A DNA stretch of 64,000 bases from the NCBI RefSeq assembly GCF_009184905.1, contig NZ_WESC01000006.1:1-64000 (forward strand). The letters are read 5' to 3'. Below, in pieces: positions 38,190 to 60,104 of this stretch (its first letter is position 1; each line of letters starts with the position of its first letter). The DNA is from Parvibaculum sedimenti (lineage in GTDB: Bacteria; Pseudomonadota; Alphaproteobacteria; Parvibaculales; Parvibaculaceae). A program made the position numbers and the translations under genes. Below the pieces are notes generated by a model that was given only the letters and a program-made list of their open reading frames with translations, was not told the DNA's origin and ran no database searches.

Positions 38190-39602
38190 ATGAGTACATC
38201 CGGTGCGAGCAACTCATTCGATCACATTCGTCAAAGTCTGGATTCGTGTCTTGTCGAGGACCCGTCGAGCGGTCGCTTCATGCTTGATCGCGCCATATTC
38301 ACTGATCCTAAATTGTTCGATCTCGAGATGAAGCACATCTTTGAGCGCAACTGGGTGTTTCTCGCCCATGAAAGCCAGCTCGTCAACGAAAGCGCCTTTC
38401 TGACCCTGACAATCGGTCGTCAATCCGTGCTTCTGACCCGGAACCGGTCGGGTGAATTGAAATGCTTTATCAATGCATGCACGCATCGCGGCGCGCGGCT
38501 GTGCCGGGAAAAACGGGGCAGGCGAACGACATTCACATGCCCGTTTCACGGCTGGACATTCAGCAACGACGGCGTGCTGCTGAATGTAACAGACGAGGAA
38601 AATGGCGCGTATCCGGAACATTTCGACCGGAGCGATCTGGGCCTGAGCGAAGTCGGACGCCTGGAATCCTACAAGGGATTCATTTTCGCCAGCCTTTCGG
38701 CAGACGTGCCGCCGCTGAGCGATTACCTTGCGGGTGCGAAGACCTTCATCGACCTCATGGTGGACCAGTCGCCCGAAGGGAAGCTTGAAATCATCCGCGG
38801 AGTCGGGCGGTATACCTATCGTGGCAACTGGAAGATGCAGACCGAGAACGGTCTCGACGGGTATCACGTGCCGACCGTGCATTCCAACTACCTGTTGACC
38901 GTCGCAAACCGGATGACGGGCGGTTCAGCGAACCCTACCAAGAGCGCAAATGTGTCCGCGTGGATGAAGACAGATCAGGGCGGTTTTTTCTCATTCGATC
39001 ACGGACACGCTTTGATCTGGAACGCGTCGGCCAGTTCTCCTTCCCGGCCCAGTTTTGAGTTTGTCGATCAGTACAAGCAGAAATTCGGCGAGGAGCGCAC
39101 CCGCTGGATGACCGAAACCACGCGAAATCTTCTTTTGTTTCCGAACGTATTCCTGATGGATCAGGTCAGCACGCAAGTCCGTATCGTGCGTCCGATCTCG
39201 GTCGATGAAACAGAAATAACGACATATTGCATCGCGCCGGTTGGAGAAAGTGCGCGGGCGCGGGCGATGCGCATTCGACAGTATGAGGATTTTTTCAATG
39301 CCAGCGGCATGGCCACGCCCGACGATTTGGCGGAGTTCAACAATTGCCAGATCGCATATGGCCGCGATGGTGGTCGCTATAACGACTTGTCGCGCGGGGC
39401 TACGAGAGGCGTTCAAGGGTCGGGAAAATTTGGCAAGGGGCTCGACATCGACGCGACCTTGAGCAGCGTCAATGTCGCCGATGAAGGACTTTTCGTCACC
39501 ATGCACAAGGAATGGATCGAGCGAATGAAACACGCGATCGCGCAGGAACGGGCGGAAGCGTCCCTCACTCGCGAAAACGATCATTCGAGGGCCGCGGAAT
39601 GA
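38190..39602 (+). CDS. Rieske non-heme iron dioxygenase, alpha subunit
   Basis: 470 aa. Rieske ligands Cys97, His99 (CTHRGA) and Cys117, His120 (CPFHGW); mononuclear iron site in ENGLDGYHVPTVH (Asp223, His226, His231). Overall it resembles the benzoate/toluate dioxygenase group. It overlaps the beta-subunit gene by ATGA, and a PdxA-like dehydrogenase follows, the same order as in terephthalate-type clusters. It should add O2 across a ring double bond, most likely next to a carboxylate. No dedicated reductase gene is in the window. Confidence 0.9.
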   Translation: MSTSGASNSFDHIRQSLDSCLVEDPSSGRFMLDRAIFTDPKLFDLEMKHIFERNWVFLAHESQLVNESAFLTLTIGRQSVLLTRNRSGELKCFINACTHRGARLCREKRGRRTTFTCPFHGWTFSNDGVLLNVTDEENGAYPEHFDRSDLGLSEVGRLESYKGFIFASLSADVPPLSDYLAGAKTFIDLMVDQSPEGKLEIIRGVGRYTYRGNWKMQTENGLDGYHVPTVHSNYLLTVANRMTGGSANPTKSANVSAWMKTDQGGFFSFDHGHALIWNASASSPSRPSFEFVDQYKQKFGEERTRWMTETTRNLLLFPNVFLMDQVSTQVRIVRPISVDETEITTYCIAPVGESARARAMRIRQYEDFFNASGMATPDDLAEFNNCQIAYGRDGGRYNDLSRGATRGVQGSGKFGKGLDIDATLSSVNVADEGLFVTMHKEWIERMKHAIAQERAEASLTRENDHSRAAE

Positions 39603-40093
39603 CGAACGGCGAACGATGCTGGATTTCGGTGCAGCGGTTTCTTGGCAGGGAAGCGCTTTGCCTCGATGAGCGCAAATGGGATGATTGGCTGGCGCTTTAT
39701 CGCGAGGACGCCGAATACTGGTTGCCGGCATGGGACGATGATGGGGAACTCACGGTCGATCCGCAGAGCGAAATCTCGCTGATTTACTATCCAAACCGTG
39801 CCGGTCTGGAGGATCGCATCTACCGCATTCGATCGCGCCGGTCGTCCGCGACGATGCCGCTCATGCGGACCTGCCACATGTTTACGCTGCTTTCCGTTGA
39901 AGGACAGGAAGGTGGCGTCAGTGTGCGAACTTCCTGGACGGTTCAGTCAATTCGCGATGATCGAACACTCACCTATTACGGATGGGCGGAATATGATCTG
40001 GCGACGCATGGAGATACCTGGCTTATCGTCCGGAAGAAGACCGTCGTTCTGAACGACGTCGCCGACACGATGATCGATGTCTACAACGTCTGA
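39599..40093 (+). CDS. Ring-hydroxylating dioxygenase, beta subunit
   Basis: 164 aa from ATG 39599, which overlaps the alpha-subunit stop. The family pattern is clear: FLGREALCLDERKWDDWLALYREDAEYWLPAW, LIYYPNRAGLEDRIYRIRS, then WLIVRKKTVVLND. Non-catalytic subunit of the alpha3beta3 oxygenase. An upstream in-frame start at 39512 would lie inside the alpha gene and is rejected. Confidence 0.9.
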   Translation: MTNGERCWISVQRFLGREALCLDERKWDDWLALYREDAEYWLPAWDDDGELTVDPQSEISLIYYPNRAGLEDRIYRIRSRRSSATMPLMRTCHMFTLLSVEGQEGGVSVRTSWTVQSIRDDRTLTYYGWAEYDLATHGDTWLIVRKKTVVLNDVADTMIDVYNV

Positions 40094-40105
40094 GGACAGC
40101 AGACC

Positions 40106-41095
40106 GTGAACAGCAAGCAAGCGCGACCCATTGTCGGCACGATGATCGGAGATCCGGCAGGGGTCGGTCCCGAGGTGATTGCCCGCGCCCTCGCGACCGG
40201 CCATGTGCATAAGCTGTCCATTCCTGTCCTGATCGGCAGCGCGGCGGCAATGGAGCGCGCCGTGGAAATCACCGGGGCGTCGTGCAGCGTGCGGGTGATC
40301 CGATCGATCGATGATCTGAGCGACGACCCCGCTATCATCGACATCATCGATTCAGGCGCCATGAAAACGTCCGAACTGCCGCTCGCGGAGGATACGGTGC
40401 GCGGCGGGGAGGTGTCGGCGCTGTGGCTCGACGAAATGAGCGCCCTTGCATCCGGCGGAGCCATCGCGGCTGGCGTCATGGGACCCATCAGTTCCGGCTC
40501 CCTCAAACTTGCCCGCAAGGTGCCGAGCATCGTCAGTCCGACACCCGGCGAAAGCTATCTTGTTCTGCTGACCGGACCGCTCCGTGTTGCGCATCTGACC
40601 GACCATATTCCGCTCCGGCGCGTTTGTGAAATCATCAGCCCCGATCTCGTGGCGCTTGCCTTGCGGCAGATAGACGGCGCTATGCGGAACTGGGGGATCG
40701 CGCGCCCGCGGATTGTCGTCGCGGGACTCAACCCTCACGCAATGGGAGATGAAGACCGCGAAGCCATCGCGCCCGGCGTCGCGCGGGCGAGGGCGGAAGG
40801 CATCGATGTCGAAGGGCCCGTAAGTCCCGACTCCGTGTTCCGGCAATGCGTCGAAGGCAGATACGACATCGTCCTCGCCATGTATCACGATCAGGGACAC
40901 ATCGCGGTCAAGACATGGGGCTTTTCCGGCAATTGCGCCATCATCCTCGGGCCGTCCTACCTGCATGTGACGGTCGCGCATGGAACGGCCTATGACATTG
41001 CGGGCAAGGGCACGGCCGATCCGGCGATGATGCTGAGCGCCATGCGCACGGCGGCCTCTCTTGCCGCGGGCCGGGGATTTCCCGAGGAGCGCTGA
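40106..41095 (+). CDS. PdxA/TphB-like dehydrogenase
   Basis: 329 aa. PdxA fold: MIGDPAGVGPEVIARAL, TDHIPLRRVCEIISPDLV, VAGLNPHAMGDEDREAIAPG, MYHDQGHIAVKTWGFSGNCAIILG, and HGTAYDIAGKGTADPAMML, with the His/Asp metal ligands present. Vitamin B6 PdxA enzymes look similar, but homologues downstream of ring dioxygenases (TphB type) oxidise and decarboxylate cis-diol carboxylates. The position 12 bp after the beta subunit argues strongly for the catabolic role. Confidence 0.85.
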   Translation: MNSKQARPIVGTMIGDPAGVGPEVIARALATGHVHKLSIPVLIGSAAAMERAVEITGASCSVRVIRSIDDLSDDPAIIDIIDSGAMKTSELPLAEDTVRGGEVSALWLDEMSALASGGAIAAGVMGPISSGSLKLARKVPSIVSPTPGESYLVLLTGPLRVAHLTDHIPLRRVCEIISPDLVALALRQIDGAMRNWGIARPRIVVAGLNPHAMGDEDREAIAPGVARARAEGIDVEGPVSPDSVFRQCVEGRYDIVLAMYHDQGHIAVKTWGFSGNCAIILGPSYLHVTVAHGTAYDIAGKGTADPAMMLSAMRTAASLAAGRGFPEER

Positions 41096-41113: not shown

Positions 41114-41581
41114 TTATGTTCCGGAGGCGTCAGACCGGCCAGCCATCATTCGCAATGGCGTATATTCGATCACCGTTTCGTTTCGTTGAGTCACGATGCG
41201 GTTGCGGGTGCGGACCAGACCGCGCCCCTTGGATGTCGGTCGCGCCTGAAGAACTTCGCATTCCACATGAATCGTGTCGCCGACAAAGGTAGGTCCCTTG
41301 ACGTTGAACTCCATGTGCAGAAAGGCGAGGCCCGTCTCCTGCATCATCGACTGGACGAGCAAACCTTCGGCCATGCAATAGACCAGCGCGCCGGGCACCA
41401 CGCGGCCGTTCATAGGGCCGTGGGCCTTGAGATATTCGACATCGGTGAAAAGCACTTCCACCATGCCTGTCGTGTTGATGAAATTGACCAGATCGGTTTC
41501 AGTGATCGTCCGGCCGATGGTGCGGAATTCCTCGCCGACCGTGAGGTCGTTCCAGCACATGCCGAGGCCTATCTTTCGCAT
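41114..41581 (-). CDS. MaoC-like hotdog protein without the hydratase dyad
   Basis: 155 aa. Hotdog fold with WNDLTVGEEFRTIGRTITETDLVNFIN, GRVVPGALVYCMAEGLLVQ and HMEFNVKGPTFVGDTIHVECEV. In R-specific hydratases the catalytic loop is S-G-D-F-N-P-x-H; here the aligned residues are T-G-M-V-E-V-L-F, so both catalytic Asp and His are replaced. It may bind an acyl-CoA without hydrating it or use another chemistry. Last gene of a minus-strand run that includes CYP153-1. Confidence 0.8.
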   Translation of the reverse strand: MRKIGLGMCWNDLTVGEEFRTIGRTITETDLVNFINTTGMVEVLFTDVEYLKAHGPMNGRVVPGALVYCMAEGLLVQSMMQETGLAFLHMEFNVKGPTFVGDTIHVECEVLQARPTSKGRGLVRTRNRIVTQRNETVIEYTPLRMMAGRSDASGT

Positions 41582-43143: not shown

Positions 43144-44784
43144 TCATGCCGGCAGGGCGACGGCGATCTCGCGCAGCTTGAACTTCTGTACCTTGCCGCT
43201 CGGTGTTCGAGGCAGTTCGCCGACGATTTCCGCCCGTTCCGGCAGGTATTGCCTCGCTACCCTGTGCTCTTCGAGGAAGGCGACCACCTCGCGCAAGCCA
43301 ACCTCGCGGCCGGGCTTCGGCACGATGAACGCACATGCCCGTTCGCCCAGCCGTTCATCCGGTACGCCGACGATCGCTACATCCTGAATGTCGGGATGAC
43401 GGAAGAGCAGGCCTTCGATCTCGACCACGGGGATATTCTCGCCGCCGCGGATGATGATGTCCTTGGAGCGTCCGGTCAGCCGGATATAGCCCTGGCCGTC
43501 GATCCGCGCGAGGTCGCCTGTATCGAACCAGCCTTCCGCGTCATGATTGTACCAGTCCGGTCTTTTGAGATAGCCAACAAAAGTCGAACAGGCGCGAGCC
43601 TTGAGCATGCCCTCCTCGCCGGCGGGCAGGGGTCTGTTCTCGCTGTCGACCACCTGGACCTCCATGCCTGGCAGCGCGCGTCCGTCAGTATTGATCGCCT
43701 TGTCGTCCGGATCGTCGAGGCATGTCGTCGTCACCAGGCCGTTCTCGGTCATGCCCCAGGCCGACACGATGTTCGTCCCGAGGATTTGCCGCGCGCGCTC
43801 GACAAGCGCGCGGGGGATGGGGGCGCCCGCCACCAGGAAGATGCGCAAACGGGAGACGTCGCTCCCGTCCGCCGCCACCGTTTCGGTCAGATCGGACAGG
43901 AACGGCGTGGACGCCATCGTGAAGGTGATTCCTTCGCGGGAGATCGACGCGGAGGCGCGCTTCGGCTCCCACACATCCTGCAGAATGGCGGTCGCTCCGG
44001 CCACAACGGGCATCACCAGCCCGTACATGAAGCCTGTCTGGTGCGCCATCGGCGACGCCATGAACATCACGTCGTCCGCGCCTAGCCCGAGGCGCTCGGC
44101 GCAGATGAGGATATTGGAGAGCAGCGTATTCGACGTATGCATGACGCCTTTCGGTTCGCCGGTCGTGCCGGACGTATACATCAACTGCGTTACGTCGTCG
44201 GGATCGGGCCGTCGCGCCGCGAAGAGACGGCCGGCGTCGCGCCGCTGCTCCCACGGCGTATCCAGAAGGACTTTCTCAAAGCTGGTTTCGCCGTCGCCGC
44301 CGATGACGAGCACATTCTTCAGCTGCGGCAGGCCGACCCGGATATTGGCCACCATGGCGGGATAATCGAAGCCGCGAAAGGCGCGCGGGATGACGAGTAC
44401 CTTGCTTTCCGCAAGGCCAAGCATGAAGGACAATTCGCGCTCGCGAAAAATCGGCATCAATGGATTGGTCACGGCGCCGATCCGTACGCAAGCCAGATGC
44501 AGCGCGGTGAATTGCCACCAGTTCGGCAATTGGCAGGAAACAACGTCGCCTTTCTCCACGCCGAGTTCCGCGAGGCCGACCGCGATACGTTCGACGATCT
44601 TGCCGAAATCGCGGTAGCTGAGGCGGGTGGCCTCGTTCGTTGTGGAGTTGAAATCGGCGACGGCCGTCTTGTCCGGCATTTCAGCGATGCAACCGTCGAG
44701 GTAGTCAGCGGCGGTCTTGCCCGGCCAGAAGCCGCCGGCGTTCATCGCCTCGACACGCTTCCTGGTCAGAATTGGATCGAACAT
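43144..44784 (-). CDS. aliA: Cyclohexanecarboxylate-CoA ligase-like enzyme (AliA-like)
   Basis: 546 aa. ANL motifs LMYTSGTTGEPKGVMHT, SAWGMTENGLV, GWFDTGDLARIDGQGYIRLTGRSKDIIIRGGENI and the C-terminal Lys in RTPSGKVQKFKL. The N-terminal part (VSCQLPNWWQFTALHLACVRIGAVTNPLMPIFRERELSFML) closely recalls AliA of Rhodopseudomonas-type cyclohexanecarboxylate clusters. It would make cyclohexanecarboxyl-CoA for AliB. Close relatives accept other cyclic or short-chain acids, so the exact substrate is inferred from the bad/ali genes 2 kb away. Confidence 0.78.
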   Translation of the reverse strand: MFDPILTRKRVEAMNAGGFWPGKTAADYLDGCIAEMPDKTAVADFNSTTNEATRLSYRDFGKIVERIAVGLAELGVEKGDVVSCQLPNWWQFTALHLACVRIGAVTNPLMPIFRERELSFMLGLAESKVLVIPRAFRGFDYPAMVANIRVGLPQLKNVLVIGGDGETSFEKVLLDTPWEQRRDAGRLFAARRPDPDDVTQLMYTSGTTGEPKGVMHTSNTLLSNILICAERLGLGADDVMFMASPMAHQTGFMYGLVMPVVAGATAILQDVWEPKRASASISREGITFTMASTPFLSDLTETVAADGSDVSRLRIFLVAGAPIPRALVERARQILGTNIVSAWGMTENGLVTTTCLDDPDDKAINTDGRALPGMEVQVVDSENRPLPAGEEGMLKARACSTFVGYLKRPDWYNHDAEGWFDTGDLARIDGQGYIRLTGRSKDIIIRGGENIPVVEIEGLLFRHPDIQDVAIVGVPDERLGERACAFIVPKPGREVGLREVVAFLEEHRVARQYLPERAEIVGELPRTPSGKVQKFKLREIAVALPA

Positions 44785-44817: not shown

Positions 44818-45684
44818 TCAGCTATTCTTTGGCTGGAAATAATCCGGTCGTCCGGGGGGCCACGGGTCGCCCCAGAGCTGCTCGCCGCCATCGACCGTCA
44901 ATACCTCGCCGGTAATAAACTTGGCGCCGGGCGAGGCGAGATAGGCGACAGCCTCGGCGATGTCGTGGGCATCGCCGACACGCAACATCGGATTTGCGCC
45001 AGGATAGGTCTTGAGACCTTCGGGCGGATATTGCACGAAGCCGCTCGTTTCGCAGACGCCCGGTGCGACGCAGTTGACGCGGATGCGATGCGGCGCCCAT
45101 TCGACGGCCACCGATTTGGACAGGTAGGCAACGCCGGCGCGCGCCGCGCATGTGTGCGCGATGCCCGGCATTCCGCGCCATATGTCCGCGATGATGTTCA
45201 CGATCGAGCCGGAGGTCTTTCTTTCGACCCACTGCCGCGCGGCGCTTTGCATCATGTACCAGGTGCCGTTGAGATTGGTGTCGATGACGGCGTTCCATCC
45301 CTTGACCTTGAAGTCGAGGGCCATTTGCGGAAACTGGCCACCGGCGTTGTTCACGAGAAGGTCGAGCGCGCCGAATTTATCCCAGACCGCTTCAACAAAA
45401 CTGTCGACCTGATCCGGATCGCGTATGGTCAGGGACCGGCTGAAGACCTGCGCGCCGATGCTTTCCAGAAAAGGAACCGTCGCGGCAAGTTTTTCTTCGT
45501 TGCGCCCGCATATGGCCACGTTCGCGCCCAGTCGCGCCAGGAGACAGGCGATCGCCTTGCCGAAACCGCTGCCGCCGCCGGAAACGACGACCGTTTTGCC
45601 CGAAAAAAGATCGGCGCGATAAACCGTGGGCAGAGCCTTCAGTTCCTCATCGGAAAACCCGAAATGAGTCTTCTGGACTTCCAT
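44818..45684 (-). CDS. SDR of the 2,4-dienoyl-CoA reductase type
   Basis: 288 aa. Cofactor loop VSGGGSGFGKAIA, LLVNNAGGQF, NIIADIW, and VDGGEQLWGDPW at the C-terminus. The usual YxxxK reads A-R-A-G-V-A-Y-L-S-K: the classical Tyr position is Ala, as in peroxisomal dienoyl-CoA and trans-2-enoyl-CoA reductases, which use a different residue. So it is more likely an enoyl/dienoyl-CoA reductase than an alcohol dehydrogenase. Lies between the TetR gene and the CoA ligase in one minus-strand run. Confidence 0.8.
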   Translation of the reverse strand: MEVQKTHFGFSDEELKALPTVYRADLFSGKTVVVSGGGSGFGKAIACLLARLGANVAICGRNEEKLAATVPFLESIGAQVFSRSLTIRDPDQVDSFVEAVWDKFGALDLLVNNAGGQFPQMALDFKVKGWNAVIDTNLNGTWYMMQSAARQWVERKTSGSIVNIIADIWRGMPGIAHTCAARAGVAYLSKSVAVEWAPHRIRVNCVAPGVCETSGFVQYPPEGLKTYPGANPMLRVGDAHDIAEAVAYLASPGAKFITGEVLTVDGGEQLWGDPWPPGRPDYFQPKNS

Positions 45685-45709: not shown

Positions 45710-46345
45710 TCACGCGACCGTTTCGTTTTCCCTGCTTCGCGCGGGTTCTTCGATTCCGATTCCGTTGAACAGCATCAGGCACATATGGTCGGCTATCGTC
45801 CGAATGGACGTCCTGCCGGGCTGGTACCATTCGACCGACCAGTTGAGGGCGCCCATCAGCAGCATGCGTACGAGACCGAGATCGACGTCGCGGCGCAAGG
45901 CGCCCGATTTCTGCGCCTTGGTGAGAATGCGCCGCCAGAGTTCGGCGTAAGCGTCGCGCTGCCTGATGTGATGCTTTTGTACCTCTTCGGGGACCTGTCC
46001 GAAAATGCGGATATTGGCGGATGTGTAGTCGTCATGCTTCAGAAGTGTTGCAAGATGCGCCTCGACGGCGACGCGAATTCGGTCGCGGTGCGATGAATCC
46101 GCAGGCAGACGTTCCTGGCTCTCCTCGACAGCTTCGTGAACCCGCCTCATGCCTATGTCGAGAACTTCCTCGAGGAGTTCGTCCTTCGAACCGAAATGGT
46201 AATAGAGGCTGCCCGCCTGCATACCGGCGGCTCTCGCGATTTCGATCAGGGTCGTCGCCGCGTAGCCTTTTTGCCGAAACGTCTTGGCGGCGGCGTCCAG
46301 TATCCTCGCGCGGCTGATGTCGGATTTGCTTTGCTCGCTCGTCAC
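45710..46345 (-). CDS. TetR-family regulator of the alicyclic genes
   Basis: 211 aa. N-terminal HTH: ARILDAAAKTFRQKGYAATTLIEIARAAGMQAGSLYYHFGSKDELLEEVL. The C-terminal domain is of the kind that binds acyl-CoA (KstR2/PaaR-like size). It is divergent from badH with 166 bp between and heads the minus-strand run SDR-aliA-CYP153-MaoC, so it probably controls both directions. Ligand unknown. Confidence 0.85.
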   Translation of the reverse strand: MTSEQSKSDISRARILDAAAKTFRQKGYAATTLIEIARAAGMQAGSLYYHFGSKDELLEEVLDIGMRRVHEAVEESQERLPADSSHRDRIRVAVEAHLATLLKHDDYTSANIRIFGQVPEEVQKHHIRQRDAYAELWRRILTKAQKSGALRRDVDLGLVRMLLMGALNWSVEWYQPGRTSIRTIADHMCLMLFNGIGIEEPARSRENETVA

Positions 46346-46511
46346 GAACGCCCCCTCGACGTCTGTCTGGCGGTGCCGATCGTAAATCTAATGTACGTTC
46401 GAAACATGTTGCACTCCATCGAAAATCGAACTAGTATTAGAAAAAATGTACCGCTATTGCTATGGCAAAATAAAAATATGCCTAAAGCATGCGGCGAGGG
46501 AGACGACAAAC
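46346..46511. promoter_or_regulatory. Divergent control region tetR/badH
   Basis: An AT-rich 166-bp region compared with its flanks. It contains TGTACGTTCGAAACATG (from 46392) with an imperfect palindrome around TTCGAA, and a repeated ATCGAA/TTCGA core. No perfect sigma70 pair stands out. GGCGAGGGAG lies before the badH start. Confidence 0.4.
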
Positions 46512-47273
46512 ATGCGCGGACTCGATCGGAAGCCGGTCATCGTTACCGGTGGCGCGAGCGGTATCGGAAAAGCGATCGTGCTCAGGCTTGGCGAAGAGGG
46601 TGCCAGGGTTGCCGTCTTCGACATGAATGAGAAGGGTGCCGAGGCCGCCGCCGCCGAAATTCGCCAGAAGGGCGGAGAGGCTTGGGCCTATAAGGTCGAT
46701 ATCACCGACTATGCGGCAGTGGCGCGGGCCGTCGATGCGTTCGAAAAGGCGGTCGGTCAGATTTATGGACTGGTGAACAATGCCGGTTGGGACGAGGCGA
46801 AGCCTTTTATCCAGACAGAGCCCGATTTCTGGAAAAAGGTGATCGACATCAATCTTTACGGGCCACTCAATCTCACCCATGTCGTTGCGCGCCGACTTGC
46901 CGAGCAGGGTGCCGGTCGGGTCGTCAGCATTTCGTCGGATGCGGGCCGTGTGGGCTCGTCTGGCGAGGCCGTCTATTCCGCGGCCAAGGGCGGTGTCATC
47001 GCCTTCATGAAGACGATGGCGCGCGAGTTCGCCCGGAAGGGCGTCACCTTCAACACGATCTGTCCGGGTCCGACGGACACGCCGCTGCTCGCCTCCGTGG
47101 ATGCGTCGGGCGGCGGACGTCTGACCGAAGCGCTCACCAAGGCGATCCCGATGCGCCGCCTGGCGCGACCGGACGATTATCCGGGCATGGTCGCATTCTT
47201 TCTGAGCGACGATGCGGGTTTCATCACCGGCCAGACGATCAGCGTCTCGGGCGGTCTCTCCATGCACGGCTGA
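46512..47273 (+). CDS. badH: 2-hydroxycyclohexanecarboxyl-CoA dehydrogenase
   Basis: 253 aa from ATG 46512. SDR with VTGGASGIGKAIV, LVNNAGWDEAKPF, Ser in SISSDAGRVGSSGEAVYSAAK (catalytic YSAAK) and the ending FITGQTISVSGGLSMHG. The segments NNAGWD, SDAGRVGSSGEAVY and PGPTDTPLL are those I associate with BadH. It oxidises 2-hydroxycyclohexane-1-carboxyl-CoA to the 2-keto form with NAD+. First gene of the operon badH-badI-aliB-crotonase. Confidence 0.82.
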   Translation: MRGLDRKPVIVTGGASGIGKAIVLRLGEEGARVAVFDMNEKGAEAAAAEIRQKGGEAWAYKVDITDYAAVARAVDAFEKAVGQIYGLVNNAGWDEAKPFIQTEPDFWKKVIDINLYGPLNLTHVVARRLAEQGAGRVVSISSDAGRVGSSGEAVYSAAKGGVIAFMKTMAREFARKGVTFNTICPGPTDTPLLASVDASGGGRLTEALTKAIPMRRLARPDDYPGMVAFFLSDDAGFITGQTISVSGGLSMHG

Positions 47274-47285
47274 CGGGGGATTTCC

Positions 47286-48077
47286 ATGGACTACGAAGAC
47301 ATTCTGTATGACGAGAAAAATGGCGTTGCGACCATCACCATCAATCGTCCCAAGGTCTATAATGCTTTCCGCCCCCGCACCTGCGTCGAACTGATTGACG
47401 CTTTCCTGAAGGCGGGCTGGAACGAGGAGATCGGTGCGATCGTGCTGACCGGCGCGGGCAACAAGGCGTTTTGCACCGGCGGCGATCAATCGGATCATGA
47501 CGGCACCTATGGTGACGGCGAGACGCGTGGAACCATCGGCATGCCGGTCGAGGAACTGCACACGGTCATTCGCGACGTGCCCAAGCCGGTGATCGCGAAG
47601 GTGCGGGGCTACGCCATCGGCGGCGGCAATGTGCTGGCGACGTTGTGCGACATGACGATTGCGGGCGAGAGCGCAATTTTTGGCCAGGTGGGTCCCAAGA
47701 TGGGTTCCGTCGATCCGGGCTTCGGCACCGCCTATCTCGCCCGCGTGGTCGGGGAGAAGAAGGCGCGCGAAATCTGGTACATGTGTCGGCGTTACCCGGC
47801 GCGCGAGGCGCTGGCGATGGGTCTCGCCAATGCGGTCGTTCCCGACGACAAGCTTGACGAGGAGGTGGATGCCTGGTGCGCCGAGCTTGTCGAGCGCAGT
47901 CCGACGGCGATTGCGATCGCCAAGAAATCGTTCAACGCCGACAGCGATAATATTCGCGGCATTGGCGGTCTCGGCATGCAGGCGCTCCGCCTCTACTACA
48001 ACTCGGCGGAGTCGAAAGAGGGCGTCAACGCGCTCAATGAAAAGCGCAAGCCGGAATTCCGCAAGCATATGAAATAG
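47286..48077 (+). CDS. badI: 2-ketocyclohexanecarboxyl-CoA hydrolase
   Basis: 263 aa. Crotonase-fold, MenB-like. The run FCTGGDQSDHDGTY, MPVEELHTVIRDVPKPVIAKV, GYAIGGGNVLATLCD and GQVGPKMGSVDPGFGTAYLA matches BadI almost residue for residue, including the Asp-Gln-Ser and Gly-Gln-Val-Gly pockets. It opens the ring hydrolytically to give pimeloyl-CoA. Begins 12 bp after badH. This is the most specific marker of the pathway in the window. Confidence 0.9.
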   Translation: MDYEDILYDEKNGVATITINRPKVYNAFRPRTCVELIDAFLKAGWNEEIGAIVLTGAGNKAFCTGGDQSDHDGTYGDGETRGTIGMPVEELHTVIRDVPKPVIAKVRGYAIGGGNVLATLCDMTIAGESAIFGQVGPKMGSVDPGFGTAYLARVVGEKKAREIWYMCRRYPAREALAMGLANAVVPDDKLDEEVDAWCAELVERSPTAIAIAKKSFNADSDNIRGIGGLGMQALRLYYNSAESKEGVNALNEKRKPEFRKHMK

Positions 48078-48085
48078 GTGGTATC

Positions 48086-49243
48086 TTGGATTTCGCATTT
48101 ACGTCCGACCAAGGAGCCATTCGAGACACTGCAGCGCGGTTTGCGCGTGAGCGGCTTGCGCCCGCCTACAAGGCGCGCGAAACCGCTGGAGTGATCGATC
48201 GACAGCTCGTCCGGGATATGGGCGAGCTTGGCCTTATCGGCGCCGATTTGCCCGAAAAATTCGGGGCGCCGGGACTCGATAGCGTCACAACCGGCATTAT
48301 TATCGAGGAAATATCACGCGGCGACATTAGCGTCGGCTATGTCCAGCTCCTGGGCTCTCTGATGGGGTCGATCATCGCCGCTCATGCAAGGCCTGAAGTC
48401 GCCGATGAAATCGTTCCGAAGATTTGCTCGGGCGAGGCGATTGTCGCGCTCGGTCTGACGGAGCCGCGAGGCGGCTCCGACGCGGCGCATCTGCAGACGA
48501 AGGCGCGCGCCGACGGCGACGGCTACGTCCTGTCGGGCGAGAAAACCTCGATCTCGATGGCCGAACAGGCTGATTACATTCTTGTGCTCGCGCGCACGGA
48601 TGAAAGCAATCCCGGCGCCGGCGGCGTGTCGGCCTTTCTGGTGCCGCTCGACGCGCCGGGTATCACCTGCTCGAGCTTCGACGATGTGGGTTCGAAAGCC
48701 GTCGGCCGCGGCTCGGTATTCTTCGACAATGTGAAGGTGTCGACGCGCTACATGGTCGGTCCGGAGGGAGAAGGTTTCCGGAAGGTCATGCAGGGGTTCG
48801 ATTATTCCCGTGCGCTGATCGGCCTGCAATGTCTGGCTCCTGCCTTCGTATCAGTGGAAGAGACCTGGAAATATGTGACCGAGCGCGTTGCCTTCGGCAA
48901 TCCGCTGGCTAAATATCAGGGCGTCACCGAACCGCTGGCCGAAGCCCAGACGTTGCTCGAGGCGGCGCGCCTGCTTTGCTACAAGACGCTTTGGCTCCGC
49001 GACAATGATTTGCCGCATACTACCGAAGCCGCGATGTGCAAATGGTGGGCACCCAAGACGGCTTTCCAGGTCATCCACCGTTGCCTGCTCACGCACGGAC
49101 ATGGCGGTTACAGCACCGATCTGCCTCATCAGCAGAGATTGCGCGACGTGATGGGGCTGCAGATCGGCGACGGCACCGAGCAAATCCAGAAGATGATCAT
49201 TTCGCGTGAGAAAGTCGGCCGAGTGGCCGTGCCTTATGCGTGA
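48086..49243 (+). CDS. aliB: Cyclohexanecarboxyl-CoA dehydrogenase
   Basis: 385 aa from a TTG start with AGGTGG just upstream. Acyl-CoA dehydrogenase fold (LGLTEPRGGSDAAHL, GYVLSGEKTSISMAEQAD). At the usual catalytic Glu (E-G-T-S-E-I-Q) it reads G-D-G-T-E-Q-I-Q, so the base is Asp, as far as I can align it. Overall sequence and neighbours fit AliB, which makes cyclohex-1-ene-1-carboxyl-CoA. Starts 8 bp after badI. Confidence 0.8.
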   Translation: MDFAFTSDQGAIRDTAARFARERLAPAYKARETAGVIDRQLVRDMGELGLIGADLPEKFGAPGLDSVTTGIIIEEISRGDISVGYVQLLGSLMGSIIAAHARPEVADEIVPKICSGEAIVALGLTEPRGGSDAAHLQTKARADGDGYVLSGEKTSISMAEQADYILVLARTDESNPGAGGVSAFLVPLDAPGITCSSFDDVGSKAVGRGSVFFDNVKVSTRYMVGPEGEGFRKVMQGFDYSRALIGLQCLAPAFVSVEETWKYVTERVAFGNPLAKYQGVTEPLAEAQTLLEAARLLCYKTLWLRDNDLPHTTEAAMCKWWAPKTAFQVIHRCLLTHGHGGYSTDLPHQQRLRDVMGLQIGDGTEQIQKMIISREKVGRVAVPYA

Positions 49244-49253
49244 GGGGGGCGAT

Positions 49254-50042
49254 ATGACGAGCGCCGCGGAAGCCCCGGTCCAGATCGAGATGCGAGACGG
49301 CGTCGGCATCGTGACGCTCAACAGGCCTGAAAAGTTCAATTGCCTCTCATCGGGTGTCATGGCCGGTCTCGACGAGGCTCTCGCAAAGTTCGAGGGAGAC
49401 AGGAAGGTTCGTGCCGTTCTGTTGGTCGCGCGGGGCAAGCACTTCTGCACCGGCGCCGATCTTGACGAGGTCCTCGACGCTCGCAGGGAGCGGGGTCGGC
49501 TGGAAGCGTTTATCACGGGCGGTCATCGCGTCCTGCGCCGTCTTGAGGTCTCGCCTCTGCCGATTGTCGCCGCGGTGAACGGTCTGTGTCTTGCGGGCGG
49601 GCTGGAATTGATGATGGCATGTGACGTGGTTTTTGCGGGGCAGTCGGCGCAGATGGGATGCCAGCATGCCCGCTACGGGCTCGTGCCGGGTTGGGGTGGC
49701 ACGCAGCGTCTCGCGCGCATCGTCGGTTCGCGGCGTGCCCTTGATCTGATGTTCAGCGGCCGCTGGCTCAAGGCGGACGAGGCGCTGGCCTGGGGGCTTG
49801 TGAACCATATCGTTGACGACGGCGCGCTTGTCGGCAAGGCGGAAGCCTATTGTGCCGATCTCGCCAAAAAGAATCCGGGCGGTCTTGCCGCCATGAAGCA
49901 GCTTTGCAGGAACGGGCTCGACGGATCGCTCCAGGAAGGTCTGGATATGGAGCGGAGCGAAGTCGTGGACGCGCTGATGAGCGAAAATGTTTCGGAAGGT
50001 CTGGCGGCGTTCCGGGAGCGCCGGGAACCATTATTCCGCTGA
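49254..50042 (+). CDS. Enoyl-CoA hydratase in the BadK position
   Basis: 262 aa from ATG 49254. Crotonase motifs: GKHFCTGADLDEV, NGLCLAGGLELMMACDVVFA, ARYGLVPGWGGTQRLARIVG with both expected active-site regions intact. In this operon its likely job is hydration of cyclohex-1-ene-1-carboxyl-CoA to the 2-hydroxy compound, the step between AliB and BadH. Sequence similarity to BadK itself is only general, so the name is not applied. Confidence 0.82.
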   Translation: MTSAAEAPVQIEMRDGVGIVTLNRPEKFNCLSSGVMAGLDEALAKFEGDRKVRAVLLVARGKHFCTGADLDEVLDARRERGRLEAFITGGHRVLRRLEVSPLPIVAAVNGLCLAGGLELMMACDVVFAGQSAQMGCQHARYGLVPGWGGTQRLARIVGSRRALDLMFSGRWLKADEALAWGLVNHIVDDGALVGKAEAYCADLAKKNPGGLAAMKQLCRNGLDGSLQEGLDMERSEVVDALMSENVSEGLAAFRERREPLFR

Positions 50043-50080: not shown

Positions 50081-51232
50081 ATGAAACACGAAGCCCAGGT
50101 CGAGCAGTTGCAGAAGATCTTCGGCTATCTCGACGCGGGTGAGACCGCGATGGGCGATGCCGCGTATCGTCATCATGTCAGTGACTACATCAGTCCGGAT
50201 CAGGCTGGCCGAGAACGGGAGATGCTGTTCCGGCATGAGCCACTCCTGATCGGATTGAGCTGCGAATTGCCCAATCCCGGCGACTATGTAACCGACGATT
50301 TTTCGGGCGTCCCGATCCTGGTGGTGCGGAATGAAGCGGGGCAGGTCAATGCCTTCATCAATGTCTGCCGCCACCGTGGCGCGCGCGTTGCGTCGGGCTG
50401 CGGCAGCGGCAAGGCCGTGTTCACTTGTCCCTATCACGCATGGACCTATGACCGGAGCGGCAGGCTGAGGTCGATACCGTTCGAGCAGGGCTTCGAGAGC
50501 GTCGACAAGACGAGCCACGGCTTGCGGCCTCTGCCAGTGGTGGAGAAATACGGCATGATCTGGGTCATGCCGACGCCTGGCGGGTCGATCGACATCGACG
50601 GCCATCTTGGGGGGATGGCGGACGATCTCGTCGCGTTCGGCCTTGCGAGTTACAGCCACTACGAGACACGCGTGCTCCGGGCGCGGCTCAACTGGAAGCT
50701 CGTGATCGACACGTTTCTCGAAACCTACCATCTGAGCACGCTGCACAAGAATACGATCGCACCGATCCTGCACTCGAACCTCGGCGCGTTCGACGGCATG
50801 GCGCGAAATCTGCGCATGATTGCCGCCCGCAAGACGATCGACGCGTTGCGCCAGAGGCCGGAAAGCGAGTGGGATCTGGTCCGCCACTCCGCGCTTGTCT
50901 ACGTGCTCTTTCCGAATACGGTTTTCATCATGCAGGGCGATCATCTGGAGACGTGGCGGGTTTATCCGGGCGACAGCGTGGATGAATCGAAAATGCACGT
51001 CTCTCTCTATACGCCCGAACCCGCCGTGACCGACAAGGCCAGAAAGTACTGGACCAAGAACATGGACTTGCTGATGGCGACGGTGCAGCAGGAAGATTTT
51101 CCGCTGGCGGAAAATATCCAGCGTGATTTTCACTCGGGTGCACAGGATTTCGTGACGTTCGGTGCCAACGAGCCGGCTCTTGCATATTTCCATCGGTCGA
51201 TCAGGAAGACGCTGGGGATCGACGCCGCGTGA
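50081..51232 (+). CDS. Rieske (2Fe-2S) oxygenase, single-subunit type
   Basis: 383 aa from ATG 50081. Rieske ligands Cys96, His98 (CRHRGAR) and Cys116, His119 (CPYHAW), then WKLVIDTFLETYHLSTLH for the mononuclear iron. The overall shape is of the aromatic ring-hydroxylating/quaternary amine group without a beta subunit. It follows the bad/ali genes by 38 bp and precedes an LLM flavin oxidoreductase and CYP153-2, implying an oxygenative step linked to the alicyclic route. Substrate unknown; no reductase gene adjacent. Confidence 0.85.
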   Translation: MKHEAQVEQLQKIFGYLDAGETAMGDAAYRHHVSDYISPDQAGREREMLFRHEPLLIGLSCELPNPGDYVTDDFSGVPILVVRNEAGQVNAFINVCRHRGARVASGCGSGKAVFTCPYHAWTYDRSGRLRSIPFEQGFESVDKTSHGLRPLPVVEKYGMIWVMPTPGGSIDIDGHLGGMADDLVAFGLASYSHYETRVLRARLNWKLVIDTFLETYHLSTLHKNTIAPILHSNLGAFDGMARNLRMIAARKTIDALRQRPESEWDLVRHSALVYVLFPNTVFIMQGDHLETWRVYPGDSVDESKMHVSLYTPEPAVTDKARKYWTKNMDLLMATVQQEDFPLAENIQRDFHSGAQDFVTFGANEPALAYFHRSIRKTLGIDAA

Positions 51233-51260: not shown

Positions 51261-52376
51261 ATGCATGTCGGTATGAGTACGTTCTTCCAGAACCTCGCTG
51301 GCGGTTATACCGACCAGGAGGTCTACGCCCATGAGATCGCGATGGCCGACATGGCCGAGCCGCTCGGCTTCGATTCCATATGGGCGGCCGAGCACCATTT
51401 CGACGAATACACCATGTGCCCGAACGTGGCACAGTTCCTCACCTATATGGCTGGCCGCACCAACAGGGTCGGTCTCGGCTCGATGGTGATGGTGCTGCCA
51501 TGGCACGATCCCATCCGGCTCGCGGAAGAAGTGCTGGTGCTCGACCATGTTTCGAAAGGCCGCGCCATTCTGGGCGTTGGCCGCGGTCTTGGCCGGATCG
51601 AGTTCGAGGGCTTCCGCATCAATATGGGTGAATCCCGCGAACGCTTCGTCGAATACGCTGAGGCAATTCTGAACGCCTTCGAAACGGGTTATATCGAGGC
51701 GAACGGGCAGTTTTACAAACAGCCGCGAACGGCCATCAGGCCGTTCCCGTTCCAGAGTTTCCGCGGCCGGACCTATGCGGCGGCGGTTTCGCCGGAGTCG
51801 GCGCGCATCATGGCGCGGCTTGGTATTGGCATTCTGATCATCGCTCAGAAGCCTTGGGAAACGACGGTCGCCGAACTCAACAACTACCGGGAAATCTACA
51901 GGGAGATAAACGGTACCGAGGCGCCCAAGCCGATCATCGCCAGTTTCATCGCCTGTCATGAGGACGCATCGGTCGCTCAGGAGATGTACGAAAAATACAT
52001 AAGGGGATACAGCCGTTCGGCCCTGAACCACTACGAATTTCACAACAAGGGGCTCGCGGACATCAAGGGCTATGAGTATTACGGAGCGCTCGCCCGTAAT
52101 ATCGAAAAGCACGGAGTCGACGAGTTTGTCGATTTTCTGGCGAAGCTTCAGGTCTGGGGCACGCCGGATCAGGTCTTCGAGCAGATCATGGAAAACCAGA
52201 AGCGCGTCGATGCGGCGGGGCTGATTTCCATTTTCAGCTATGGCGGCATGCCGCAGGAACTTGCCACTAAGAACATGAAACTTTTCGCGGAAAAGGTTTT
52301 ACCGCGTCTGAAGCGTCAGGAAGTCAATGGAAGCGTCGGCGGCATACGCGGTCGCGTGACGATCGCCGCCGACTAG
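51261..52376 (+). CDS. LLM-class (luciferase-like) flavin-dependent monooxygenase
   Basis: 371 aa from ATG 51261 with AAAGGAG upstream. TIM-barrel bacterial-luciferase family: EPLGFDSIWAAEHHFDEYTMCP, TNRVGLGSMVMVLPWHDPIRLAEEVLVLDHVSKGRAILGVGRG. Such enzymes use reduced FMN or F420. The His-His-Phe motif suits a monooxygenase. It lies between the Rieske oxygenase and CYP153-2. No flavin reductase is nearby. Confidence 0.85.
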   Translation: MHVGMSTFFQNLAGGYTDQEVYAHEIAMADMAEPLGFDSIWAAEHHFDEYTMCPNVAQFLTYMAGRTNRVGLGSMVMVLPWHDPIRLAEEVLVLDHVSKGRAILGVGRGLGRIEFEGFRINMGESRERFVEYAEAILNAFETGYIEANGQFYKQPRTAIRPFPFQSFRGRTYAAAVSPESARIMARLGIGILIIAQKPWETTVAELNNYREIYREINGTEAPKPIIASFIACHEDASVAQEMYEKYIRGYSRSALNHYEFHNKGLADIKGYEYYGALARNIEKHGVDEFVDFLAKLQVWGTPDQVFEQIMENQKRVDAAGLISIFSYGGMPQELATKNMKLFAEKVLPRLKRQEVNGSVGGIRGRVTIAAD

Positions 52377-53759: not shown

Positions 53760-54500
53760 TCATTTTTTTCCGAATGAGGCGACGCGTTCGCGCGCGTCGA
53801 AACAGGCACCGGGGCTATGCGCGAGTTCGTAGGCCAGCCCCGCCTGGGCGGTCATGCCATCGGTCGCGCCCAACAGACCTTTGTTGACCTGATTGCTGTA
53901 GGTCGAATTGGCGGCGATACGCTGAGCAAGGTCGTTTGTCGCCTGTTCCAGTTCGGCATCGTCGACACAAATGTCGACCAGCCCCATGCGCTCGGCCACC
54001 TCCGCCGCGAAAATATCGGAGGTAAACATCATCTGCTTGGCCTTCGACAGCCCGACGCGACGCGGCAGTCTTTGCGTCATGCCCCAGAGCGGGCTCAGTC
54101 CCCACTTGCTATGCGTGTCGCCGAACTTGGCGGAGCGCGCGGCGATGATGATGTCTGCCGCGAGCGCAAGCTCCAGTCCGCCAGTATAGCAATGCCCGCG
54201 GATGCAGGCGACGACCGGTTGCGGCAGTTCGGCCAGCGCCTGAATGGTCTTCGCCTGGAAATGCGGTTCCGGCGGGCGCTCGCCCTTCTGGATGTCCTTC
54301 AGATCGTGGCCGGCTGAAAAAGCCTTGCCCGCGCCCGTGATGACGACGCATGCCACCTCGTGAACCTGTCCACGAAGCGCATCTACATGCCCGCGCAATT
54401 CTTCGAACAGCGGGACATTGAGCGCGTTCAAGGTTTCCGGACGATTGAGCGTCAGCGTACAAATACGCCCGCTGTCCTTGCGAAGAACCAGATTCGACAT
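53760..54500 (-). CDS. Enoyl-CoA hydratase/isomerase
   Basis: 246 aa. Crotonase motifs KAFSAGHDLKDIQ (SAGHD oxyanion hole) and CIRGHCYTGGLELALAADIIIA, KWGLSPLWGMTQRLPRRVG. The catalytic Glu of hydratases in the second motif is not obvious, so isomerase or thioesterase-like activity is possible. Downstream of the alpha/beta hydrolase on the same strand (gap 95 bp). Confidence 0.85.
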   Translation of the reverse strand: MSNLVLRKDSGRICTLTLNRPETLNALNVPLFEELRGHVDALRGQVHEVACVVITGAGKAFSAGHDLKDIQKGERPPEPHFQAKTIQALAELPQPVVACIRGHCYTGGLELALAADIIIAARSAKFGDTHSKWGLSPLWGMTQRLPRRVGLSKAKQMMFTSDIFAAEVAERMGLVDICVDDAELEQATNDLAQRIAANSTYSNQVNKGLLGATDGMTAQAGLAYELAHSPGACFDARERVASFGKK

Positions 54501-55623: not shown

Positions 55624-56442
55624 ATGCGGGTATCTGAAATGAAAGCGATCGTGTCCGTTTCACGAGTCAGCCGATTTCCGAAAGGGTCCGGCAAGCGTGC
55701 CCTCTCAGTTGCGAGGCAGATTGTCGAGGACATCGAGCAGCAAGGTGCCGAGGTCGGAGATCGTTTGCTGCCAGAACAGGAGATGCTCGTACGGTATGGA
55801 GTGGCCCGCGCGACCTTGCGGGAGGCGCTCAGGTTTCTGGAACTGCAGGGCATCATTTTTCTGCGGCCCGGCCCCGGCGGCGGGCCGATCGTTCAGGAGC
55901 CCCGACCGAAAGATTTTGCCAGTACAATGGCGTTGCTGCTGCAATTTCTCGGCACCACATTCCGTTCGCTAATTGAAGTGAGGCAAGCGGTCGGTCCGAC
56001 CATGGCGGCGCTTGCGGCGGAGCGAGCGTCCGATGAAGATATCGACAAGCTGAATACGTCATTGGCCACTTTGAAGACGCTGTCTGTATCTTGCAACTCC
56101 TATGCGGAGGAGAACAGGCGTTTCCACGACGTGCTTGCATGGGCGTCTGGCAATCCCTTGATCGGATTCTTGATCGGTTCGCTTCACAACATCACGAATG
56201 CGTCGGAGGTCGGCATAACTTATACGGAGGGTGAGCGTGACTATCAGATCAAGGCGTACGGACGACTTCTCAAGGCGATTGAAGATCGCAATCCAGACCT
56301 CGCTTTCACCGAAATGTCCCGGTTCATAAGCCGATCCGACAAGTATCTGGAAGCTCGTCATCCCGATATCATGTCCAAAATCGTGCGTTGGCAGGATGCG
56401 GACGACCTGAGCGTGCCGCGGGTTCCCCGACGGAAACGCTAG
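55624..56442 (+). CDS. GntR-family regulator, FadR subgroup
   Basis: 272 aa (an ATG at 55639 is equally possible; neither has a clear ribosome binding site). Winged helix: VARQIVEDIEQQGAEVGDRLLPEQEMLVRYGVARATLREALRFLELQGIIFLRPGPGGG. The C-terminal all-helical FCD domain (EVRQAVGPTMAALAAERAS) normally binds a metal and a carboxylate. It is divergent from the hydrolase and upstream of the nitronate monooxygenase-BVMO genes, and is my candidate for the shared AT-rich operator. Confidence 0.85.
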   Translation: MRVSEMKAIVSVSRVSRFPKGSGKRALSVARQIVEDIEQQGAEVGDRLLPEQEMLVRYGVARATLREALRFLELQGIIFLRPGPGGGPIVQEPRPKDFASTMALLLQFLGTTFRSLIEVRQAVGPTMAALAAERASDEDIDKLNTSLATLKTLSVSCNSYAEENRRFHDVLAWASGNPLIGFLIGSLHNITNASEVGITYTEGERDYQIKAYGRLLKAIEDRNPDLAFTEMSRFISRSDKYLEARHPDIMSKIVRWQDADDLSVPRVPRRKR

Positions 56443-56504
56443 GCGAGTGTTCGCGATTTCGATGTCATTTTTGCGGCACTTGCGCCGCTCCCCGGGCGTC
56501 GCTA

Positions 56505-56520
56505 ATTTATGATCATAAAT
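56505..56520. promoter_or_regulatory. 16-bp perfect palindrome before the nitronate monooxygenase gene
   Basis: ATTTATGATCATAAAT, 38-53 bp before the start codon, in the region where a regulator would block or activate RNA polymerase. The half-site TTATGAT resembles the AT-rich motif found before the GntR gene. Confidence 0.6.
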
Positions 56521-56557
56521 AACGCGGCCGATGAAGTCGCCCGATGGGAGGTTAGCT

Positions 56558-57691
56558 ATGACTCTGCATAGCCGAGTATGTGAAATTCTGGGTATTAAAT
56601 ACCCGATCTTGCTGGCCGGTATGGGCGGCGCGAGCGTTCCGCGTCTTGCGGCGGCGGTATCGAATGCGGGTGGCCTCGGTGTGCTTGGCGCGGCTGCTTG
56701 TTCTCCCGATCAGTTGCGCGAATGGATTCGGGAAACGCGATCGCTGACGGACAAGCCATTTGGTGTAGACACCCTGCTACCAGCCTCCGTGCGTAGGGAA
56801 GCCTACAAGGGCAAGGCGGGTCCGTCTCCGATGGATCTGCTGCCTGAGTACCAGAAATTCGCGCAGGATTTTATGAAGAAGGAAAACATACCGCCGCTGA
56901 AATCCAGGGCGCGGGAATCCGAGGAAGCTCAGCGGTCGTCCAAATCGAACGCGCCGCTGTTTTCGAAAGAATTCTTCGAAGCGCAAATGGAAGTCGTTGT
57001 TGAGGAGCGGGTTCCTGTCTATGCGGCGGGTCTTGGCAATCCGGGGCCCTGGCTTGACCGGCTCCACGCCAACGGCACCAAGGTGATGGCGGTCGTCGGC
57101 GCGGTAAAGCATGCCCTGCAGGTGGTCAATTCCGGCATCGATCTGATCGTCGCGCAAGGCCATGACGGGGGCGGGCACAATTCACCCATCGGAACGATGG
57201 CGCTCATTCCGCAGGTTGTCGATGCGGTCGCGGGTCGCATTCCCGTGCTCGGTGCGGGCGGCATTTCCGATGGGCGCGGCATCGCGGCTGCAATGATGCT
57301 CGGCGCCGAAGGCGCCTGGATCGGTACGGCGTTTCTCGCGACCGACGAGGCGGGCATCGAGGACTTCCAGAAGGAAGCGATTGTCGAGTCGGGTGACGGT
57401 GACACACTTGTTTCTCGAACCGTCACCGGAAAGCCGGCCCGGATCATTCGCAACAAGTGGTCCGAGGCTTTTGTCGCGGCGGGTCTGGAGCCGTTGCCCA
57501 TGCCCTTCCAGCCCATGGTTGCGATGCCGGTGCTGGCGGCGGCGGCGGCGGTAAAGCGGAAAGATATCGCTCCCGGTTTCGCGGGGCAGGGCATGGGTCT
57601 CATTCACAAGGTGAAGCCGGCTGCGGAAGTCATGGCCGATCTCGTGAAAAGCGCCGAAAGCTCGTTGAGCAGGGCAAATATCTATCTGTAA
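56558..57691 (+). CDS. Nitronate monooxygenase-family FMN enzyme
   Basis: 377 aa from ATG 56558 (GGGAGG upstream). TIM-barrel with ILLAGMGGASVPRLAAAVSNAGGLGVLG, VAQGHDGGGHNSPIGTMALIPQ (FMN site and catalytic His region) and GAGGISDGRGIAAAMMLGAEGAWIGTAF. Known members oxidise nitronates, but many in catabolic clusters act as enoyl reductases or on unknown substrates. An insert of about 50 polar residues (ENIPPLKSRARESEEAQRSS) is present near residue 110. First gene of a run with the thioesterase and BVMO. Confidence 0.82.
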   Translation: MTLHSRVCEILGIKYPILLAGMGGASVPRLAAAVSNAGGLGVLGAAACSPDQLREWIRETRSLTDKPFGVDTLLPASVRREAYKGKAGPSPMDLLPEYQKFAQDFMKKENIPPLKSRARESEEAQRSSKSNAPLFSKEFFEAQMEVVVEERVPVYAAGLGNPGPWLDRLHANGTKVMAVVGAVKHALQVVNSGIDLIVAQGHDGGGHNSPIGTMALIPQVVDAVAGRIPVLGAGGISDGRGIAAAMMLGAEGAWIGTAFLATDEAGIEDFQKEAIVESGDGDTLVSRTVTGKPARIIRNKWSEAFVAAGLEPLPMPFQPMVAMPVLAAAAAVKRKDIAPGFAGQGMGLIHKVKPAAEVMADLVKSAESSLSRANIYL

Positions 57692-57740
57692 GCCTCGGCT
57701 GCGCGCCCTGGGGATCATTGAAGGTTTCGGAGAAAACGAG

Positions 57741-58187: not shown

Positions 58188-58283
58188 GCAACGCCGCTCC
58201 CCTCCCGGTGCTGCGGGGAAGATTGCTCGGCGACAGAATATGGTTTCGATAACGACACTCACCGCTTCGTGGTGGGGATATGA

Positions 58284-59933
<1,650 letters not shown>

Positions 59934-59941
59934 TGGATCTG

Positions 59942-59965
59942 CGGCGGCCTCGCTGCCGGTTTTTT
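59942..59965 (+). terminator. Rho-independent terminator after the BVMO gene
   Basis: CGGCGGC (59942-59948) pairs with GCTGCCG (59952-59958, one G-T pair) and is followed by a six-T run. Confidence 0.7.
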
Positions 59966-60017
59966 GGGGCGGCCTGCGGGGGTGAAAGTGTTTGACGCTG
60001 AATCGTCCATATGATTT

Positions 60018-60030
60018 ATTATAATGAATT
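60018..60030. promoter_or_regulatory. AT-rich motif before CYP153-3
   Basis: ATTATAATGAATT, 75-87 bp before the start codon, in a 170-bp stretch otherwise free of genes. Close match to copies before CYP153-1 and the GntR gene. Confidence 0.45.
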
Positions 60031-60104
60031 TATGCAAGGGGCAAGGGATTGCATGCGCCATGACGGGTGGATGCCGCGTAGACATTGATCGGGAGGACAA
60101 AGAG

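Follow-up and report, generated by a model that had tools for sequence, protein, structure and literature searches.

The bad-ali route of cyclohexane ring cleavage has been characterized best in anaerobic and facultative bacteria; that aerobes use it too is for the most part a prediction from genomes. In Aromatoleum sp. CIB the bad-ali genes are required for aerobic growth on cyclohexanecarboxylate and, as far as the account in PMC9795900 goes, the Gram-negative clusters are governed by a MarR-type repressor, BadR, with a CAAN4TTG box, and some known bad-ali clusters have no badK. We analyzed a window of 64,000 nucleotides (positions 1 to 64,000 of contig NZ_WESC01000006.1) from the 3.70 Mb genome of Parvibaculum sedimenti, which holds badH, badI, aliB and aliA, the genes it has in common with the CIB and R. 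palustris clusters (PMC9795900), together with several oxygenase genes and a gene for a TetR-family regulator. This locus probably represents a form of the bad-ali ring-cleavage system that works aerobically and is linked to a TetR regulator.

Four neighboring open reading frames on the forward strand, separated by 12, 8 and 10 bases, encode a BadH-like short-chain dehydrogenase/reductase (SDR) of the 2-hydroxycyclohexanecarboxyl-CoA dehydrogenase type (46512-47273), a BadI of the 2-ketocyclohexanecarboxyl-CoA hydrolase type (47286-48077), an AliB of the cyclohexanecarboxyl-CoA dehydrogenase type (48086-49243; TTG start) and a crotonase in the position of BadK (49254-50042), as described in the initial annotation of this DNA. 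Coding sequence starts were chosen from the translations, and for BadH an alternative upstream ATG at 46446 also lies in open frame. The extent given in that annotation, 46512-50042, covers real genes but was too narrow. The run continues to 53688 with a Rieske oxygenase (50081-51232), a luciferase-like monooxygenase (LLM; profile match; 51261-52376) and a CYP153-type P450 (52423-53688), after gaps of 38, 28 and 46 bases, making seven genes with no gap larger than 46 bases, and a divergent run containing AliA, outside those coordinates, had been missed. This second run, on the reverse strand (46345-41114), encodes the TetR-family regulator (45710-46345), an SDR identified by profile match (44818-45684), the cyclohexanecarboxylate-CoA ligase AliA (43144-44784), another CYP153-type P450 (41669-42934) and a MaoC-like protein (41114-41581), with internal gaps of 25, 33, 209 and 87 bases. 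The TetR and BadH genes are separated by a divergent gap of 166 bp (46346-46511). A 538-codon antisense frame over BadH and BadI (46482-48098, reverse strand) was taken as an artefact of G+C-rich coding DNA.

Protein families were assigned by NCBIfam profile search with curated cut-offs. AliA exceeded its cut-off (TIGR03208; 802.5 bits against 792.3). The other three proteins had their named families as best matches, as the initial annotation had proposed, but all at scores below the cut-offs: BadI (TIGR03210; 455.8-456.3 bits against 467.6), AliB (TIGR03207; 555.3 bits against 575.35) and BadH (TIGR03206; 328.4 bits against 431.2, with YSAAK and NNAG motifs). In each of the four the named model leads the runner-up by at least 110 bits, the second-best models scoring 260.2 bits for AliB and 210.1 bits for BadH, and Asp at the GDGTEQ position of AliB is found in 63 of 63 homologues with at least 50% identity.

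If BadI were a MenB or an ordinary enoyl-CoA hydratase, the operon would be one of generic beta-oxidation. The closest solved relatives of BadI are MenB-type, a GS-D-G-G stretch is common to BadI and these relatives, and the BadI score lies just below its cut-off; the best MenB model, however, reached 339.9 bits compared to 456.3 bits for the BadI model, and AliB and AliA stand alongside. Across 397 genomes of the phylum, matches to the BadI model at E <= 1e-80 were found in 50, with listed scores of either 391-540 or 291-317 bits and, among the matches listed, the cut-off exceeded in eight genomes. 14 chosen genomes (E <= 1e-60) gave, among the matches listed, 409-495 versus 243-305 bits, with one over the cut-off. 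Because the TIGR03210 scores split into two groups (391-540 versus 243-317 bits), the BadI match is not a chance one. In a 49-protein tree, ten rows in the MenB range, labeled by score and similarity rather than by annotation, formed a single branch (97/99) that excluded the window BadI, which grouped beside BadI proteins of Parvibaculum, Enhydrobacter and Reyranellaceae (91/89). The root of this tree is unsure, as the crotonase outgroup branches are very long, the MenB branch is drawn among BadI rows and many forks are unresolved. The grouping with MenB or plain hydratases that would have refuted the initial annotation was not seen. Profile scores and tree speak against a MenB or a generic hydratase, an alternative to which we give next to no credence. 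The ring-opening assignment is thus supported by the family scores, the tree and the presence of AliA in the divergent run, and a ring-opening role of the cluster is likely.

The crotonase is at most a candidate BadK. Its profile matches were confined to generic models of enoyl-CoA hydratases (EchA19 the best, with 207.4 bits against a cut-off of 400), and its first catalytic Glu is retained while the second, which we take to be the equivalent of rat Glu164, is replaced by His in 24 of 24 homologues (at least 45% identity, loci of at least 7.5 kb). Eight crotonase matches other than BadI, from five of ten loci with canonical BadI scores, carry Glu at this position. Among 102 BadI-locus rows, the His-type crotonase was found in 24 and the Glu-type in 17, never in the same locus, a separation that is partly one of definition, given identity limits of 45% and 30%. 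A further crotonase in the window (53760-54500) likewise carries His, within the similar motif DTHSKWG, and for this reason the His-type crotonase was dropped as a mark of the operon alone. The D-x4-H motif, presumably that of hydratase-2 enzymes, was not clearly seen in the sequence of the MaoC-like protein (41114-41581) when this was considered as the missing hydratase.

The regulator scored 97 bits with the ScbR model, below the cut-off of 150. The gap between its gene and BadH carries TCTAATGTACGTTCGA and, in inverse orientation, TCTAATACTAGTTCGA, and predicted TetR operators were placed at 46387-46402 (forward) and 46426-46441 (reverse) by conservation of the palindrome TCTAAN6TT(A/C)GA. 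Two of the three matches to this palindrome in the genome lie in the 166-bp gap. A TetR homologue was present in 23 of 111 loci of at least 7.5 kb, with the site within 450 bases upstream in 21 of the 23, compared to a site anywhere in only one of the 88 loci without the homologue; of the two exceptions, L059 shows an imperfect copy in the gap, and in L063 sites occur at other places, one of them directly before BadI. When only loci with BadI were counted (n = 102), the site was found in 21 of 21 with TetR versus one of 81 without. Both locus sets, and the count of His-type crotonases, include some genomes twice (e.g., L037/L038 and L050; L041 and L056). Three of 24 genomes had no palindrome (G022, where the contig starts 384 bases before BadI, G025 and G106), and other genomes also hold single matches away from the cluster. 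Ten loci with a canonical BadI (nine over the cut-off, one just below) had no palindrome, and in six of these CAAN4TTG was found within approximately 350 bases upstream of BadH. This box was absent from the gap in the window and in nine other loci, and elsewhere in the window it occurs seven times compared to 13.3 expected. Operator-like sites also precede the SDR gene directly in L058 and, as two copies, the MaoC gene in L057, which suggests that the SDR and the MaoC-like protein of the divergent run belong to the TetR regulon. In uncultured lineages, the palindrome could help to recognize the same regulon.

All three P450s of the window (starting at 41669, 52423 and 60024) had 7ant, 3rwl and 6hqg as their top three solved relatives, with 3rwl (CYP153A7) first or second for each, and they were assigned to CYP153 by these relatives. 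One stands between AliA and MaoC, 209 bases after AliA, and is 80% identical to the one closing the Bad run. By profile and solved-structure matches, the Rieske protein at 50081 is similar to monooxygenases for carnitine and glycine betaine (CntA/GbcA-like), and the Glu in its ETYHLSTLH stretch is Asp in a second Rieske protein of the window (38190; BenA-like, 587.8 bits against a cut-off of 780.95). Further downstream on the forward strand lies a set encoding a GntR regulator, an NMO-like protein, a thioesterase, a Baeyer-Villiger monooxygenase (BVMO; 58299-59933) and the third CYP153 (60024-61358). The BVMO aligned with PDB 6jdk over 544 of 544 residues (E = 0), which we take to be a P. lavamentivorans enzyme studied with cyclic ketones. 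The whole set (55624-61358) is kept beside the cluster in three other genomes (G013, G016 and G001) and may share a pathway with it. The initial annotation also had the ring-opening route fed by CYP153, Rieske, LLM and BVMO enzymes. Their physical link to the cluster stands; that the oxygenases feed the route is suggested by layout and conservation only. The window also holds BenA/BenB-like dioxygenase subunits with a PdxA-like protein (38190-41095), and this pair is possibly, judging by position, Plav_1761/1762, the BenAB-type pair named for P. lavamentivorans DS-1 in PMC3368416.

Of 26 other genomes of the genus, several of them incomplete, 15 encode a BadI with 87-100% identity, while a 16th (G004) has a different BadI with 72% identity. 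The neighbors of BadI were retained in those genomes of the genus whose surroundings were compared, and P. lavamentivorans DS-1 carries an orthologous cluster. Beyond the genus, Enhydrobacter aerosaccus (L057) and a Reyranellaceae genome (L059) have BadH-BadI-AliB-crotonase-Rieske in identical order and also the SDR, and four genomes of another family (L188-L191) have TetR, the site and then BadI-AliB-crotonase-BadH-Rieske. In the gammaproteobacterial L105 and L121, a Rieske gene and BVMO homologues (43% identity) lie near BadI, and L121 has nine gene families in common with the window within 13 kb, including BVMO, MaoC and a CoA ligase. In a sample of the class, Rieske homologues (E <= 1e-90) were found in 33 and BadI homologues in 45 of 386 genomes, both together in 17 compared to about 3.9 expected if independent, although related genomes are clumped in this sample. 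Within 5 kb of BadI the Rieske gene was found in seven of the 17, including the window genome and one more of the genus. A Rieske gene was near 15 of the 24 BadI loci with a His-type crotonase versus two of the 78 other rows. By these sequence comparisons, BadI is repeatedly accompanied by a CntA/GbcA-like Rieske protein and a His-type crotonase in further lineages of the alpha- and gammaproteobacteria.

This pattern bears on whether the cluster is instead a plain aerobic cyclohexanecarboxylate cluster in which the Bad proteins and AliA act as their namesakes, with unrelated oxygenase genes for alkanes or surfactants lying nearby by chance. DS-1 is rich in such genes, with at least nine CYP alkane monooxygenases and 40 acyl-CoA dehydrogenases reported in the part of its genome description drawn on here (PMC3368416), and homologues of the two nearer CYP153 genes were found beside Bad genes only in the genus and in the nearby L055. 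Chance proximity, however, accounts poorly for a Rieske gene within the run in several lineages, for a CYP153 between AliA and MaoC, and for Rieske and LLM homologues that adjoin TetR and the site in L194. We consider this explanation unlikely, though it has more in its favor than the other alternatives discussed here.

Several findings weigh against a TetR-linked bad-ali variant, beginning with the scores of BadH, BadI and AliB below their cut-offs. We are less sure of the divergent run as a single operon, given its gaps of 209 and 87 bases. The palindrome is not rare as a pattern, since its reversed form occurs 15 times in the genome compared to three for the forward form, and G106 has adjoining BadI and Rieske genes with no palindrome match in its genome. 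AliA is beside the cluster in six of ten other cluster genomes of or near the genus, being absent in G001, G002, G006 and G012, and in none of ten TetR-type loci outside the genus (50% identity, within 9 kb); the activated acid may therefore differ between hosts. In G001 (L048) and G012 (L053) the same divergent run occurs without AliA between the SDR and CYP153. These absences suggest that the ligase is dispensable, replaced or encoded elsewhere in some Parvibaculum. The linked Rieske proteins were not found as one co-inherited clade in a tree, which was a quick one with a long outgroup, in which eight linked rows were labeled and the G106 and L188-L191 rows were placed by handle. In G129, which is absent from the 45 genomes with a BadI match, L194 (7791-11590) groups BadH (70% identity), TetR, the site, Rieske (48%) and, following the Rieske gene, LLM (67%), and some of the module may serve a different purpose. 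Physiology also counts here, as cyclohexane, cyclooctane, cyclododecane and cyclohexanone gave no growth of DS-1 (PMC3368416).

Among the substrates named for the DS-1 growth tests in the part of that source drawn on here, cyclohexanecarboxylate, methylcyclohexane and cyclohexylalkanoates do not appear; those that gave no growth also include hydroxyacetophenone, benzoate and others. Camphor, geraniol, citronellol, linalool, menthol and eucalyptol did not support growth either (PMC3368416), a result relevant to a further explanation, in which the ring arises within the breakdown of a larger molecule (a terpenoid, steroid or bicyclic acid), with BadH, BadI and AliB acting late and the Rieske, LLM, BVMO and CYP153 enzymes earlier. 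A badKHI cluster without ali genes has been proposed for monoterpenes, as described in PMC9795900. Further along the contig are several acyl-CoA dehydrogenases and a 3-ketosteroid delta-1-dehydrogenase-like flavoprotein (L203 5985-7676; 649.3 bits against a cut-off of 788), a DUF1329 gene adjoins the Rieske gene of L105, a DUF1302 gene lies in the window, and in L057 an amidohydrolase and an LLM protein follow the Rieske gene. The lack of growth on these six terpenoids and the AliA over its cut-off in the divergent run argue against this explanation, as does the downstream extradiol dioxygenase, which falls far under the HsaC cut-off (167.7 of 450 bits) and scored 322.9 of 366.45 bits as a biphenyl-2,3-diol dioxygenase. 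The stretch that the flavoprotein adjoins (L203 489-5318; contig 64.5-69.3 kb) encodes an HpaE-like dehydrogenase, a BphC-like dioxygenase and HpaG-, HpaI- and HpaH-like proteins, none of which reaches its cut-off; because of the weak HsaC score and the neighboring HpaE/G/H/I-like genes, it looks more like an aromatic meta-cleavage set than like steroid catabolism. We find an origin in a larger molecule quite improbable.

Under the preferred reading of an aerobic bad-ali variant, CYP153 would oxidize a cyclohexane compound at its exocyclic methyl or alkyl end and AliA, going by its family assignment, would turn the resulting acid into its CoA ester. AliB would then introduce the 1,2 double bond, water would be added by the His-type crotonase or another hydratase, BadH would oxidize the alcohol, and BadI would hydrolytically open the 2-keto ring to a product of the pimelyl-CoA type that enters beta-oxidation. 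PimC- and PimD-like genes on the same contig, on opposite strands and 41-45 kb from the badH start, encode proteins that could take up pimelyl-CoA (434.2 of 623.85 and 476.5 of 652.7 bits, below the cut-offs). The Rieske and LLM enzymes may act on a ring or chain substituent. TetR, presumably a repressor, would bind TCTAAN6TT(A/C)GA between the divergent runs and be released by the alicyclic acid or its CoA ester. An alkylcyclohexane or naphthenic acid as substrate is our working hypothesis. We also put forward, tentatively, that the TetR with its palindrome, the His-type crotonase and the CntA/GbcA-like Rieske protein as a working part of the ring-opening operon mark a second, oxygen-linked class of BadI systems, which would handle ring-substituted cyclohexane acids beyond the reach of the BadR class, with the substituent hydroxylated or taken off by the Rieske enzyme.

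With its orthologue in DS-1, a sequenced type strain that PMC3368416 describes as hard to cultivate, the cluster is a clear genetic unit with a predicted switch and operator. This makes it possible to test its substrates, its regulation and what the Rieske protein does, and with them how oxygen-breathing bacteria break down oil-type ring acids. A phage-type integrase (22197-23453) lies directly after guaA (20332-21879) in the window, and the 6.3 kb that precede the DS-1 thiolase (L039) yielded no homologues of the window genes at 30-33 kb; together these suggest a variable island border. At the level of titles and listings of open-licence papers, no report was found of a Parvibaculum bad-ali cluster or of a proteobacterial TetR/Rieske variant.

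In comparison with known systems, the P450 route from cyclohexanecarboxylate to 4-hydroxybenzoate (ChcB2, ChcC1, ChcC2) has counterparts on the window contig in a P450, an SDR and a 3-ketosteroid-dehydrogenase-like protein, but the best matches there lie far below the cut-offs (ChcB2, 175.6 and 147.1 of 350 bits; ChcC1, 326.5 of 1000 bits). The bad-ali-like clusters that PMC9795900 cites for Rhodococcus and Cupriavidus, compared here by description, likewise belong to aerobic hosts, and a TetR-type regulator is also described for the Gram-positive clusters (PMC9795900); the window cluster differs from those of Rhodococcus and Cupriavidus in its Gram-negative host, a divergent TetR gene and oxygenase genes within the run. 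Like the window cluster, that of CIB has divergent promoters, and it also serves aerobic growth on cyclohexanecarboxylate (PMC9795900). To the bad-ali set of CIB and R. palustris the window cluster adds Rieske, LLM, CYP153 and MaoC genes, and its crotonase is of the His type, whereas the eight crotonase matches from five of the ten canonical-score loci carry Glu. What is new here is that the cluster departs from the common BadR type: in place of the MarR-type repressor and CAAN4TTG described for Gram-negative bad-ali clusters (PMC9795900), it has a TetR gene and the palindrome TCTAAN6TT(A/C)GA.

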